Shown here: in pieces, positions 9,464-16,308 of the stretch
Numbering within the stretch: the first letter of the stretch is position 1
Layout: each line of letters starts with the position of its first letter
DNA from: Trueperaceae bacterium
GTDB taxonomy: Bacteria; Deinococcota; Deinococci; Deinococcales; Trueperaceae
Direction: 5' to 3'
Length of the DNA stretch: 39,683 nt
Assembly (NCBI GenBank): GCA_003567075.1
Contig: PXAU01000134.1
Coordinates: 1-39,683 of the forward strand
Made by a program: the position numbers and the translations under genes
Notes under the pieces: generated by a model
What the model was told of the DNA's origin: nothing
Seen by the model: the letters and a program-made list of their open reading frames with translations, nothing else
Database searches by the model: none

Positions 9464-9492
9464 TTGACACGCAGTCTACCACCACGTATGCT
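9464..9492 (+). promoter_or_regulatory. Sigma70-type promoter of the ilv leader
   Basis: TTGACA (9464-9469), 17-nt spacer, TATGCT (9487-9492). Confidence 0.8.
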
Positions 9493-9500
9493 TCCGAGCT

Positions 9501-9572
9501 ATGAACCGTCAGCAGTCCCGCCACCGTGCCCTGCTGAACGCCCACCCCGTACGCCTAGCGCTGCTGGGGTAA
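9501..9572 (+). CDS. Putative ilv leader (attenuator) peptide, 23 aa MNRQQSRHRALLNAHPVRLALLG
   Basis: ATG 8 nt after the -10 hexamer; Leu/Val codons clustered at the 3' end (GTA CGC CTA GCG CTG CTG GGG TAA); followed by terminator/antiterminator alternatives. Confidence 0.7.
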   Translation: MNRQQSRHRALLNAHPVRLALLG

Positions 9573-9607
9573 GCGCCGGTTCACCGCCCGCGGTCGACAA
9601 CGCTTTT

Positions 9608-9641
9608 GACCCCGCCATGGTCACCGATCAGGCGGGGTCTT
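9608..9641 (+). terminator. Attenuator terminator hairpin upstream of ilvB
   Basis: GACCCCGCC (9608-9616) pairs with GGCGGGGTC (9631-9639); inner TGGT/ATCA extension around a CACCG loop; only a short T-rich tail. Confidence 0.65.
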
Positions 9642-9714
9642 GTGCATGCCGAGGGTGCGCGCGCTGCCCGACGAGGCGCGCGGAGAGGAGCGATGCGATG
9701 ATGGGAGCGAGCAC

Positions 9715-11415
9715 GTGAACGGGGCCGCGGCCCTGCTCAAGGCCCTGGAGCGCCAGGGCGTGACGACGGTGTTCGGGCACCCGGGTGGTGCCATCATGCC
9801 CGTCTACGACGCGCTTTACGACTCGTCGATCAAGCACGTGCTGGTACGCCACGAGCAGGCTGGGGCGCACGCCGCCGACGCCTTCTACCGGGCCTCGGGC
9901 CGCGTTGGCGTGTGCTTCGCCACGAGCGGACCCGGCTCCACCAACCTCGTCACGGGGCTGGCGACAGCCCACATGGACTCCTCGGCCATGGTGGCCGTCA
10001 CCGGCAACGTGCCAAGCAGCCTGATCGGCACCGACGCCTTCCAGGAGGCCGACATCACCGGGATCACGCTCCCCATCACCAAGCACAACTACCTGGTGCA
10101 GCACGTCGACGACATCCCCCTGGTCGTGGCCGAGGCCTTCCACATCGCCGCCACCGGCCGCCCGGGGCCCGTGCTGATCGACATCCCCAAGGACATCCAG
10201 CAAGCCGAGTTCACGGGCAGCTTCGAGGTCGAGCTCGACCTGCCCGGATACCGTCCGACAGTGATCGGCAACGCCCGGCAGATCAAGCGCGCTGCCCAGG
10301 CCATCCGCGAGGCCGAGCGGCCCGTCCTGATGGTGGGTGGGGGAGGTCAGAGCGCGCCCGAGGCGGTCGCGCGCTTCGCCGAGGTCACCGGTATCCCGGT
10401 GATCACCACCCTCATGGGCATCGGCGCGTACCCGGCCGGCGCCGAGCAGGCGCTGGGCATGCCCGGCATGCACGGCACCGTCACGGCCAACCGCGCCATC
10501 ACCCACTGCGACCTCATCGTCGGTGCCGGGCTGCGCTTCGACGACCGCGTCACCGGCAAGCTGTCGCGCTTCGCGCCCAACGCCACCGTCGTGCACATCG
10601 ACGTCGACCCGGCCGAGATCTCCAAGCTGGTCAAGGCCCACGTGCCGGTGGTGGGCGACCTGCGCGACGTGCTGCCGCGCCTGACCGAACTGCTGGGCAG
10701 GCTCGAGCTCGACGCCTGGTGGCGCCAGCTGGACGAGTGGAAGGCGCGCTACCCCGAGCGCTACAAGACCGACAAGCCGCTGGTCTCACAAGAGGTCATC
10801 CAGCTGCTCGAGTCCGCCAGCGGCGGCGAATGCGTCGTCACCACCGAGGTCGGGCAGCACCAGATGTTCGCGGCACGGCTCTTCCCGACCTCGAAGCCCC
10901 GCACCTGGATCACCTCGGGGGGCTTGGGCACCATGGGCTTCGGCCTGCCCGCCGCGATCGGCGCCGCCTTCGCGCGCCCGGGCGAGACGGTGGTGTGCGT
11001 GGCCGGTGACGGCAGCGTCCAGATGAACATCCAGGAGCTCGCGACCATCTACAAGCACCAGCTGCCCATCGTCATCGCCATCACCAACAACGGCATGCTC
11101 GGCATGGTGCGGCAGTGGCAGGAGATGTTCCACGCCCAGCGCTACTCCGAGGTGTTCCTGGCCGACTCCAACCCCGACTTCGCCAAGCTGGCCGAGGCCT
11201 ACGGCATCGAGGGGCACAACCTCTTCGACCGCGAGACCGCCGCTCGGATCATCCCCGAGGCGATCGCCGCGAAGCGACCGGTGCTACTCAACTTCGTGGT
11301 GTACGAGTCCGAGAAGGTGTTCCCGATGATCCCCGCCGGCGCCGGTGTCGACGAGATGATCATCGGCGACCAGGAGCCCGAGGAGCACGAGGGCGGGAAG
11401 GCGGTGCCGGCATGA
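9715..11415 (+). CDS. ilvB: Acetolactate synthase large subunit
   Basis: GTG start VNGAAALLKALERQGVTTVFGHPGGAIMPVYDAL; ThDP motif GDGSVQMNIQELATIYKHQLPIVIAITNN. Confidence 0.96.
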   Translation: MNGAAALLKALERQGVTTVFGHPGGAIMPVYDALYDSSIKHVLVRHEQAGAHAADAFYRASGRVGVCFATSGPGSTNLVTGLATAHMDSSAMVAVTGNVPSSLIGTDAFQEADITGITLPITKHNYLVQHVDDIPLVVAEAFHIAATGRPGPVLIDIPKDIQQAEFTGSFEVELDLPGYRPTVIGNARQIKRAAQAIREAERPVLMVGGGGQSAPEAVARFAEVTGIPVITTLMGIGAYPAGAEQALGMPGMHGTVTANRAITHCDLIVGAGLRFDDRVTGKLSRFAPNATVVHIDVDPAEISKLVKAHVPVVGDLRDVLPRLTELLGRLELDAWWRQLDEWKARYPERYKTDKPLVSQEVIQLLESASGGECVVTTEVGQHQMFAARLFPTSKPRTWITSGGLGTMGFGLPAAIGAAFARPGETVVCVAGDGSVQMNIQELATIYKHQLPIVIAITNNGMLGMVRQWQEMFHAQRYSEVFLADSNPDFAKLAEAYGIEGHNLFDRETAARIIPEAIAAKRPVLLNFVVYESEKVFPMIPAGAGVDEMIIGDQEPEEHEGGKAVPA

Positions 11416-11990
11416 CGGCCACGACGCTCGAGCCCATCCAGCGGCACGTGATGTCGGTCACCGTGCGCGATCGACCGGGCGTGCTGGTGCGCATCGCCGC
11501 GCTGTTCGCTCGGCGCGGCTTCAACATCGAGTCGTTGGCGGTGGCGCAGTCCGAGACGCCTGGCGTCAGCCGCACCACCTTCGTGGTCTACGGCGAGGAC
11601 CAGGTGATCGAGCAACTGCAGAAGCAGCTGCAGAAGCTGATCGACGTGATCAAGGTCATCGACCACTCGGAAGGACCATCGGTGGAGCGCGAGCTCATGC
11701 TGATCAAGGTCGCCGTGCGCACGCCCGAGGACCGCGTCGAGCTGCGCCAGATCGCGCACGACTTCCGTGCCCGCATCATCGACGTCGACCGCCACGCGCT
11801 GGTGTTCGAAGTGACCGGCGACGAGAACAAGACCGACGCCTTCATCGAGCAGATGCGCCCCTTCGGCATCCTGGAGCTGATCCGCACCGGCCGCGTGGCG
11901 CTGCCGCGCAGCGCCGGCCAGCGCGCCGCCAACGGCGACGCCGGCAGCCGCAACGGTGGCACCCGCGACACTGCCAACCGGGCCGCCTGA
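11412..11990 (+). CDS. ilvN: Acetolactate synthase small (regulatory) subunit
   Basis: ATG overlaps the ilvB stop; ACT domain HVMSVTVRDRPGVLVRIAALFARRGFNIESLAV. Confidence 0.95.
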   Translation: MTATTLEPIQRHVMSVTVRDRPGVLVRIAALFARRGFNIESLAVAQSETPGVSRTTFVVYGEDQVIEQLQKQLQKLIDVIKVIDHSEGPSVERELMLIKVAVRTPEDRVELRQIAHDFRARIIDVDRHALVFEVTGDENKTDAFIEQMRPFGILELIRTGRVALPRSAGQRAANGDAGSRNGGTRDTANRAA

Positions 11991-12017
11991 GTCGGCCCAC
12001 GAGGAGACATCGACACC

Positions 12018-13022
12018 ATGCCCACCACCATCTACTACGACGACGACGCCAACCTGCAACAGCTCGAAGGCCAGACCATCGCCGTCATCGGCTACGGTTC
12101 GCAGGGCCACGCCCACGCCCTCAACGCCAAGGAGTCGGGGCTCGACGTGGTGGTGGGCCTGCGCCCCGGCTCGAGTTCGTGGAGCGAGGCCGAGGCGGCC
12201 GGCCTGCGCGTGCTCGAGGTGGCGGACGCGGCCGCGGCCGGCGACCTGGTGATGGTGCTGCTGCCCGACGAGGCGCAGGGCGCCGTCTACCGCGAGCAGA
12301 TCGCCCCCCACCTGGAGGCGGGCAACGCGCTGCTGTTCGCGCACGGCTTCAACGTCCACTTCAACCAGGTGCAGCCGCCCGCCGACGTCGACGTCTTCAT
12401 GGTCGCCCCCAAGGGGCCAGGCCACCTCGTCCGCCGCACCTTCAGCGAGGGCGGTGGCGTGCCGTGCCTGCTGGCCGTCCATCAGGACGCCAGCGGCGCC
12501 GCCATGCAGCGCGGCCTGGCCTACGCCAAGGCGATCGGCGGCACCCGCGGAGGCGTGCTGCTGACGACCTTCCAGGAGGAGACCGAGACCGACCTGTTCG
12601 GTGAGCAGGCGGTGCTGTGCGGCGGCGTGACCGCGCTCATGCAGGCCGGCTTCGAGACGCTCATCGAGGCGGGGTACCAGCCCGAGGTGGCGTACTTCGA
12701 GTGCGTGCACGAGATGAAGCTGATCGTCGACCTGATCTACGAGGGCGGCTTCGAGCGCATGCGCCACTCGATCTCCAACACCGCCGAGTACGGCGACTAC
12801 GTCACGGGCCCGAAGCTGGTGACCGAAGGGACGCGCGCGACCATGCGCGAGGTGCTGCGCGACATCCAGACCGGCAGCTTCGCGCGCGAGTTCCTGCTCG
12901 AGAACCAGGTCGGGCAGCCGCGGCTCCAGGCGCAGCGGCGCGCCACGGGCCAGACGCAACTGGCCGAGGTCGGCGCGAGGCTACGGACGATGATGCCGTT
13001 CATCGCCCAGAAACGGGGTTGA
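12018..13022 (+). CDS. ilvC: Ketol-acid reductoisomerase
   Basis: [59 protein letters not shown]. Confidence 0.97.
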
Positions 13023-13084
13023 CGCCCCGGCCCGCCGCACTCGCGCCCAGCCGCGCCGCCCCGGCCGGCACGACGGAGGACTCC

Positions 13085-14626
13085 ATGGCGCACATCCGGA
13101 TCTTCGACACCACGCTCCGCGACGGCGAGCAGACGCCCGGCGTGGCGCTCGACACCGCCCAGAAGATCGAGATCGCCAAGCAGCTCGCCCGCTTGGGCGT
13201 CGACATCATCGAGGCCGGCTTCCCGATCACGAGCCAAGGCGACTTCGAGGCCGTGCAACGCATCGCCCGCGAGGTGCAGGGTCCGGTGGTGTGCGCGCTC
13301 GCGCGCACGGCGCGCGCCGACATCGAGCGCGCCGCGCAGGCGCTCGAGCCCGCTTCGAGCGGACGCATCCACGTCTTCACCTCGGGCTCGAAGATCCACC
13401 TCGAGTACATGCTGCGCAAGAGCGAGGAGGAGGTGCTCGAGGCCACCGTCGAGAGCGTCCGCTTGGCGTGCGAGTACACCGACGACGTGGAGTTCTCGGC
13501 GCAGGACTGCACCCGCAGCGAGCTCGGCTTCCTGATCCGGCTCTACGGCGCCGCGATTCAAGCGGGCGCGACCACGATCAACATCCCCGACACGGTCGGC
13601 TACGGGATGCCCGAGGAGTACGCGGCGCTCATCCGCACCCTCCGTGAGCGCATCCCCGGTGCCGACGCCGTGCACATCAGCACCCACTGCCACGACGACC
13701 TCGGCTTGGCCGTCGCCAACTCCCTGGCCGCGGTCGGGGCGGGTGCCACCCAGGTCGAGTGCACCGTCAACGGCATCGGCGAACGGGCCGGCAACGCCTC
13801 GCTGGAGGAGGTCGTGATGGCGCTGGAGACACGCAAGGACGTCTGGGGGCACCACACCCAGATCGTCACGCGCGAGCTCTACCGGACTTCGCGCATGGTG
13901 AGCATGATGACCGGCACGCCGGTCCCGCCCAACAAGGCGGTGGTGGGCGACAACGCCTTCGCGCACGAGTCCGGCATCCACCAGGACGGCGTGATCAAGG
14001 CGCTCGAGACGTACGAGATCATGTCGGCCGAGACGGTGGGGCGCGATGCCGGCGTGCTGGTGATGGGCAAGCACTCGGGTCGCCGCGCGTTCCGCCGCAC
14101 CCTCGAGGAACTCGGCTTCGCCGAGCTCGGCGACGACCAGATCAACGCGCTCTTCAAGGCCTTCAAGGACCTGGCCGACCGCAAGCGAACCGTCACCAGC
14201 GAGGACATCCGCGCCCTGGTCGAGGTCGAGACCGCGCGCGTGCCGCAGACGTACACCCTCGAGGCGGTGCAGTTCCAGTCCGGTACCCACATGACGCCGG
14301 TCGCCACCGTGCGGCTCAGGACCGACACCGGCAGCTACGAGGAGGCCGCCACCGGCGACGGCCCGGTCGACGCCGTCTACCACGCCCTGGAGCGCATCTC
14401 GCAGGTGCCGATCGCGCTGGAGGCGTACGAGATCCGCTCGGTCGGCAGCGGCAAGGACGCCCTGGGCGAGGTGAGCGTGCGCGTGTCGAGCGAGGGGCGC
14501 TCGGTGCACGGGCGTGGCCTCTCGACCGACGTGGTCGAGGCCTCCGCCAAGGCCTACGTCGACGTGCTGAACAAGCTCGCCGCCGGGGTGGCGCGACGCC
14601 TCGGCGAGAGCGTCGCCACGCCGTGA
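13085..14626 (+). CDS. leuA: 2-isopropylmalate synthase
   Basis: [71 protein letters not shown]-terminal LeuA allosteric domain. Confidence 0.95.
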
Positions 14627-16308
14627 ACGTAGGGCACGCGCAGGACGAGGCCGGCGCTCGCGACGTCCTGCGCGGTCGCTGCATCGAGGTCTACGACACC
14701 ACGTTGCGCGACGGCACCCAGGGCATCGGCGTCAGCTTCACGAGCGACGACAAGGTCGCCATCGCGCGCCGCCTCGATGCCTTCCGGGTCGACCTGATCG
14801 AGGGCGGCTGGCCCGGCTCCAACCCGCGCGACGCGCGCTTCTTCGAGCGCATGCGCGACGTCGAGCTCGACCACGCCCGGCTGGCGGCCTTCGGCAGCAC
14901 CCGGCGCCGGGACGCAGCTGTCGAGGACGACGCCAACCTGGCGGCCCTGGTGGCGGCCAGGACGCCCGTCGTGACGGTGTTCGGAAAGTCCTGGACGCTG
15001 CACGTGCGCGAGGCGCTGGGCGTCGAACCGGACGCCAACCTGGCCATGATCGGCTCCTCGGTGGCCTACCTGCGCAGCTGCGGGCGCGAGGTGGTGTACG
15101 ACGCCGAGCACTTCTTCGACGGCTACGCCGACGATGCCGACTACGCCCTGGCGACGCTGCTGGCGGCCGCCGAGTCGGGCGCGCAGCGGATCGTCCTGTG
15201 CGACACCAACGGGGGACGCCTGCCGGCGGAGGTGGCGCGCGCCACGCGCCTGGCAGGTACGCACCTCGCGGCTGCCGGCGCGCCAGTGCCGCTCGGAATC
15301 CACCCCCACAACGATTCCGCGCTGGCGGTCGCCAACGCGCTCGCGGCCCTCGAGCAGGGAGCCAGTCACGTGCAGGGCACGATCGGCGGTTACGGCGAGC
15401 GCTGCGGCAACCTCGACCTACTCAGCCTGTTGCCGACGTTGGCGCTCAAGCTCGGCGCCGCGCAGCCGCAACCGCTGGTCGAGGCCACGGCGTTGGCGCG
15501 GTTCGTCGACGAGCGCGCCAACCTGGCCCCCAACCCGCGCGCTCCCTACGTGGGCGAGGGCGCCTTCGCGCACAAGGGCGGCATCCACGTCTCGGCCGTC
15601 AACCGCCGGCCCGACACCTACGAGCACGTGGCGCCCGAAGCGGTCGGCAACGTGCGACGCGTGCTGCTCTCCGACCTGAGCGGCCGCGCCAACCTGGTGG
15701 CGAAAGCCAATGAACTCGGCGACGGCGCGCTCGCCAGCGACGCCGGCGCGCTGGTAGGGCGGCTCAAGGAGCTCGAGCACCTCGGGTACGCCTTCGAGGG
15801 CGCCGAGGCCTCGTTCCATCTGGTGGCGCGCAAGGTGCGCGGCGACCACCGGCCGTACTTCACGCTGCATGGCTACACGGTGATGTTCGACAAGCGCGAC
15901 GGCGACGACGGGCCCCGCTGCGAGGCCAGCGTCCGGGTGCAGGTGGGCGAGAGCTTCGAGCACACCGCCGCCGACGGCGACGGACCGGTGAACGCGCTCG
16001 ACCGTGCGCTGCGCAAGGCGCTCGAACGCTTCTTCCCGAGCCTCGCGAGCTTGCGCCTCACGGATTACAAGGTGCGGGTGCTGGCCGGTCCCGACACCGG
16101 GACCGCCAGCGTGGTGCGCGTCCACGTCGAGACCACCGACGGCGAGCGCACGTGGGGAACGGTGGGGGCGCACGCCAACATCATCGACGCCTCGTACCAG
16201 GCGCTCCTGGACGCGATCGACTCCAAGCTGCACGCTGACGGCGTGGTGCCGGGCCAAGCCCTGACCTTCGAATCCCAGGTCGCCAGGGCCCAGCACGTAC
16301 GAAGCTGA
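14623..16308 (+). CDS. cimA: Citramalate synthase (CimA-type)
   Basis: GTG overlaps the leuA stop; [54 protein letters not shown] is typical of the CimA subfamily; C-terminal LeuA-like domain. Confidence 0.92.

Follow-up and report, generated by a model that had tools for sequence, protein, structure and literature searches.

A probable leaderless leader-peptide attenuator ahead of ilvBNC-leuA-cimA, conserved in the class Deinococci

The locus and its operon

The window considered here, 39,683 nt from a 2.72-Mb draft genome of a member of the Trueperaceae (Deinococcota), contains five consecutive genes, ilvB, ilvN, ilvC, leuA and cimA, whose products make leucine, isoleucine and valine, the amino acids that an attenuator in front of them would be expected to sense. 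An earlier note, written from the letters of the sequence, had recognized this operon, and curated NCBIfam models confirm its identity (Table 1). Between a promoter and ilvB lie a short ORF and several RNA segments with alternative pairing partners, which the same note took to be a leader-peptide transcription attenuator; every element that it described was found, base for base, at the position given in the table.

Table 1. Features of the ilvB upstream region and the operon (coordinates are those of the window)
Feature	Coordinates	Strand	Basis or remark
Promoter: TTGACA (9464-9469), 17-nt spacer, TATGCT (9487-9492)	9464..9492	+	Sequence; all 99 Deinococci regions compared share the layout
Putative leader peptide ORF, ATG-TAA, 23 codons, MNRQQSRHRALLNAHPVRLALLG	9501..9572	+	No Shine-Dalgarno; TAA at 9570-9572
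Segment 1, ACCCC	9544..9548	+	Candidate protector with 9566-9570; pairs in predicted fold; doubtful
Candidate control codons GTA (9549-9551) and clade-conserved CTA (9555-9557)	9549..9557	+	In-frame enrichment; fixed spacing
Segment 2, GGGGTAAGCG, antiterminator 5′ arm spanning leader stop codon	9566..9575	+	Predicted fold; G-run near stop conserved in class
ACCG-CCCG-CGGT apical hairpin inside antiterminator	9583..9594	+	Alignment A2 and folds; block conserved only in window clade
Segment 3, CGCTT (9601-9605)...GACCCCGCC (9608-9616)	9601..9616	+	Antiterminator 3′ arm and terminator 5′ arm
Intrinsic-terminator-like hairpin GACCCCGCC / GGCGGGGTC (segments 3:4), then poor U-tract TTGT	9608..9643	+	Segment 4, GGCGGGGTC, at 9631-9639
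Minicistron ATG GGA GCG AGC ACG TGA, stop overlapping ilvB GTG start (GTGA)	9701..9718	+	Similar in 7/8 clade members examined
ilvB, acetolactate synthase large subunit	9715..11415	+	NCBIfam TIGR00118, 777 bits; first structural gene of operon
ilvN	11412-11990	+	NCBIfam match above curated cut-off
ilvC	12018-13022	+	NCBIfam match above curated cut-off
leuA	13085-14626	+	NCBIfam match above curated cut-off
cimA	14689-16308	+	NCBIfam match above curated cut-off; operon remainder after ilvB, 11412..16308

The minicistron just before ilvB has its own Shine-Dalgarno sequence. Its counterparts, of 5-6 codons, encode MGPSS, MGPDS, MQRGIG, MQRGNG and MGGSA in the clade members that have one (it is missing in L004), and to judge from the overlap it is probably coupled translationally into ilvB.

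A promoter that abuts the leader ORF

DNA upstream of ilvB was compared across the class Deinococci, Trueperaceae included, where 99 regions with sufficient sequence span 31 genera and five families, none recognizable as the genus Deinococcus. All 99 have one layout: TTGAC(A), a spacer of about 17 nt, a -10 element resembling TANNNT, a gap of 6-10 nt, the ATG or GTG of a leader ORF of 16-36 codons that has a G-run toward its end, a GC-rich hairpin with a 5′ arm complementary to the G-run, and then ilvB. T. igniterrae (L034) shares it. The gap in the window, between TATGCT and the leader ATG, is 8 nt.

A Shine-Dalgarno sequence (GGAG or GAGG) precedes none of the 99 leader starts and 91 of the 99 ilvB starts, though its absence from the former is partly forced, as the -10 element occupies that very place and so excludes a start of the conventional kind. 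A -10 element adjoining an ORF is a common route to leaderless mRNA in Deinococcus-Thermus (PMC12340547; PMC3160421), and the first of these reports describes the same promoter-to-start geometry, though for ordinary genes and without mention of leader peptides. The leader ORF is probably translated from a leaderless mRNA that begins at or near its ATG.

For other leaders in the genome the search was for a single promoter-start pattern. TTGACA-N16-18-TANNNT-N7-9-RTG has two matches in the 2.72 Mb, one here and one before dnaK, and the reversed pattern, used as a control, has none. The dnaK site (L184 1501-1650, G000:C283) is the sole other perfect instance of TTGACA-N17-TANNNT-N8-RTG in the genome.

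Leaderless ORFs can load ribosomes, and an excess of leader genes near structural genes has been reported, Deinococcus-Thermus included, in connection with a reinitiation model (PMC4833913). An ORF serving chiefly to recruit ribosomes that then reinitiate at ilvB would fit those observations; here, however, some 140 nt separate the leader stop from ilvB and include a strong hairpin, and the reported distances peak at 10-11 bp, with about 40 bp given as the least that attenuators require (PMC4833913), which leaves reinitiation a vanishingly small probability.

Rare codons in frame

The earlier note had remarked that GTA and CTA look rare, and they are: in the ilv, leuA, cimA and gltB genes of the window CTA makes up 5 of 357 Leu codons (1.4%) and GTA 7 of 330 Val codons (2.1%). 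The leaders of the Trueperaceae have CTA at 46 of 111 Leu codons (41%) and GTA at 15 of 67 Val codons, and those of the family that contains Thermus have CTA at 148 of 236 (63%) and GTA at 74 of 177. Among 31 genus representatives the two codons account for 89 of 674 codons in the leader frame versus 11 of 643 and 7 of 643 in the other two frames. Base composition cannot account for an enrichment that is specific to one frame, and selection has thus acted on the translated codons.

Within the clade of the window CTA is retained in all nine leaders, and it stands 11 nt before GGGG in eight of them and 14 nt before it in the ninth. It is this fixed spacing, together with the in-frame enrichment, that marks the ORF as one with codons for the amino acids of the pathway; the overall Leu/Ile/Val content of the clade's leaders is not raised, being 0.24 versus a background of 0.228. 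Of the Leu/Val sensing proposed at the outset, the leucine part is the better supported, through the single conserved CTA, and valine has less in its favor.

Some leader peptides from Thermus-like genomes are hydrophobic, MRFGLVLSLGLVLIVGPAGGRV for example, and the ORF might on that account be thought to encode a functional small peptide, perhaps of the membrane, with a terminator of its own and ilvB nearby by chance. Yet between genera the peptides diverge beyond alignment while the rare codons, the G-run and the hairpin persist, the peptide of the window is not hydrophobic, and the ORF is invariably directly upstream of ilvB; a peptide with such a function is very unlikely to be the explanation.

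Within the leader ORF of the window there is also CAGCAG...CTGCTG (9513-9535), kept in the genus (in part in L003, and in L008 and L187). It is possibly a 5′ pause hairpin.

Alternative RNA pairings

The hairpin that separates the leader ORF from ilvB has the character of an intrinsic terminator, with a predicted -23.9 kcal/mol (z = -5.1 relative to shuffled sequences), and is conserved in every leader found. Its U-tract, which the earlier note had already called poor, has 4 T in 8 and is weak throughout the clade of the window.

Taken by itself the fold of the proposed antiterminator, segments 2:3, is unremarkable in the window (z = -1.5), and so the case for it depends on comparison. When segments were permuted among the 31 genus representatives, the matching of every segment 2 with its own segment 3 was on average stronger than any of the 20,000 permutations, with a mean of -19.6 versus -16.6 kcal/mol. 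Restricted to genus representatives of the Trueperaceae the same test was without significance (5484/20000), and the window clade likewise gave no signal, because GGGGT and ACCCC are nearly invariant there. In one family all three segments differ together, GAGGGTC/GACCCTC/GAGGGTC in L174 and L176 versus GGGGGTC/GACCCCC/GGGGGTT in L175 and L177. It is the covariation across genera and these triple changes that establish an antiterminator exclusive of the terminator, a pairing that the Trueperaceae alone do not resolve. Comparison of related ilvB upstream regions, the kind of check that had been suggested for the initial reading, finds leader ORF, rare Leu/Val codons at fixed spacing, terminator and antiterminator all conserved, with compensatory changes across genera.

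A third pairing, between segments 1 and 2, had been put forward as a protector. As an evolved element it lacks support across the class: the class-wide mean for pairing of segment 2 with the leader ORF, 0.79, is indistinguishable from the 0.71 of shuffled sequences. In the window itself the value is 0.99 versus 0.86 for shuffled sequences, 7 of 100 of which reached it, and there a protector hairpin may exist. It is not needed, as a terminating ribosome over segment 2 would serve just as well to explain the off state.

The antiterminator of the window clade is predicted to consist of GGGGU:ACCCC, then a helix that varies between species (AAGCG:CGCUU in one, GGCGUCGG:CCGACGCC in another), and then the small ACCG/CGGU hairpin. 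That hairpin is part of a block, TTCACCG-NNNN-CGGTCGAC (9580-9598), that is situated between the leader stop codon and the terminator and is near-invariant in the clade in alignment A2, in which the G-run is misplaced in G012, G014 and G015; the conservation includes the flanks of the loop and so goes beyond what hairpin formation involves. No such block was seen in other Trueperaceae.

A conserved non-coding block in this position brings to mind an RNA that binds a ligand or a tRNA, a riboswitch or T-box, governing the terminator with the ORF incidental to it. Rfam has no match in the window at gathering thresholds and returns noise only at relaxed ones, and in ten relatives there is none save an unrelated tRNA. 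With the codon enrichment being specific to the reading frame as well, control by such an RNA is highly improbable.

A probable switch set by the ribosome

Given the anatomy of the element, its conservation across the class, the in-frame selection on rare Leu and Val codons and the mutual exclusivity of the two pairings with segment 3, what lies upstream of ilvBNC-leuA-cimA is very probably a ribosome-mediated transcription attenuator. The core of the original reading is in this way supported by the comparative tests, with regulation deduced from sequence.

RNA polymerase would start at the leader ATG or a few bases from it, and a 70S ribosome would begin on the leaderless end. With a plentiful supply of the charged Leu-tRNA that reads CUA, and perhaps of the Val-tRNA that reads GUA, the ribosome would reach the stop codon and, since segment 2 is positioned around that codon, cover it; with GGGGU masked, segment 3 would be left to pair with segment 4 and the terminator would form. 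With the charged tRNA scarce, the ribosome would be expected to pause on CUA or GUA, and as these codons are upstream of segment 2 most of that segment would then be free. GGGGU(AAGCG) could pair with (CGCUU)ACCCC, no terminator would form and the operon would be transcribed.

In a folding model that sets the edge of the ribosome 13 nt after the A site, and that treats folding as an equilibrium with co-transcriptional order left out, moving the ribosome from the stop codon to a rare Leu/Val codon made the antiterminator likelier in 85 of 96 leaders and less likely in 4. The leader of the window gave 0.75 for GTA, 0.53 for CTA and 0.67 for the stop, an ambiguous outcome without a clear switch, due to the ability of segment 3 to pair also with sequence just past the stop codon. 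There GGGG starts 11 nt past CTA, which puts the G-run just at the limit of the stretch covered by a ribosome whose A site holds CTA.

This ambiguity, the weak U-tract and the background Leu/Ile/Val content raise the thought that in the window clade an attenuator ancestral to the class has degenerated and today serves chiefly as a constitutive partial terminator, or gives a weak response, with control having moved elsewhere, for instance to the minicistron coupled to ilvB; the extra conserved block (TTCACCG...CGGTCGAC) and the minicistron, both features of that clade, would fit. Degeneration is nonetheless rather unlikely when CTA, at about 0.1% of host-gene codons, is still 11 nt from GGGG in eight of nine leaders, when the terminator stem and GGGGT are retained in all, and when the connecting helix of the antiterminator varies in sequence yet pairs.

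Relation to known attenuators

Other bacteria are known to use this mechanism, and as known it stays unchanged; what the comparison adds is its probable class-wide occurrence in the Deinococci. A literature search for attenuation in Deinococcus and Thermus found no description, though an earlier mention may exist. Leaderless ilvB attenuators are already established in the Actinobacteria, with IlvL of C. glutamicum (PMC11857589, PMC10272879) and ilvL of S. lividans (PMC8079986), and for ilvB1 of M. tuberculosis the published model has the terminating ribosome masking the antiterminator (PMC13236596), as is proposed here. The actinobacterial ilvBNC attenuators resemble that of the window in having a short ORF coding for Leu, Ile or Val before ilvB, and those of C. 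glutamicum and S. lividans in having the start codon at or beside the transcription start, a site that for the window is inferred. GUA is among the control codons in both C. glutamicum and M. tuberculosis. The mycobacterial ilvB loci included in the present comparison have the same gap between -10 element and ATG, and the codons CTC GTA GTA. The differences are of phylum and sequence, of the main control codon, which in the window clade is CTA, and of geometry: segment 2 of mycobacteria (TTGCGCG) is able to pair next to the terminator arm, and GGGGT of the window pairs with the arm itself.

The leu attenuator of Salmonella and E. coli is similar in its rare CUA control codons and different in that it controls leuABCD, not ilvB. 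Its leader, unlike the putatively leaderless one of the window, is not known to be leaderless. In Salmonella leu, CUA is the control codon classically regarded as sensitive (PMC1183508), and substitution by CUG lowered the sensitivity (Carter et al. 1986, cited in PMC1183508). Mycobacteria also have leaderless cysteine attenuators in which the speed of the ribosome on a short ORF serves to sense the amino acid (Canestrari et al. 2020, cited in PMC9031893); these serve cysteine genes, and PMC9031893 describes them as controlling genes downstream without the terminator architecture of ilvB.

One may speculate that the leaderless attenuator of ilvB was already present in the ancestor of all Deinococci instead of having arisen repeatedly, that the similar leaderless ilvB leaders of Actinobacteria perhaps have the same origin, and that control in the window clade has been reduced to a single CUA and a small hairpin inside the antiterminator; at present that history has to be regarded as doubtful.

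The known range of leader-peptide attenuation of branched-chain amino acid synthesis would now include an entire class where leaderless genes are the rule, and dozens of small ORFs that lack annotation are predicted. About 100 independent sequences become available for studying the control of termination by a ribosome that translates a leaderless message, and occurrence of the same element in Thermus, for which genetics exist, raises the matter of termination control at high temperature.

On the other side of the promoter, on the minus strand, a divergent gene that resembles SpoVS appears to start at 9382-9380 and extends to about 9038. Its apparent start codon is ATC (GGAGGTGCCGAC ATC GAA ACG CTA), not ATG, GTG or TTG. 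ATC after a Shine-Dalgarno sequence is found also in the SpoVS-like genes examined from the same genus (L003, L008, L187, L188) and in L004, with GTG or ATG in others, and a conserved non-canonical start would be of interest in its own right.
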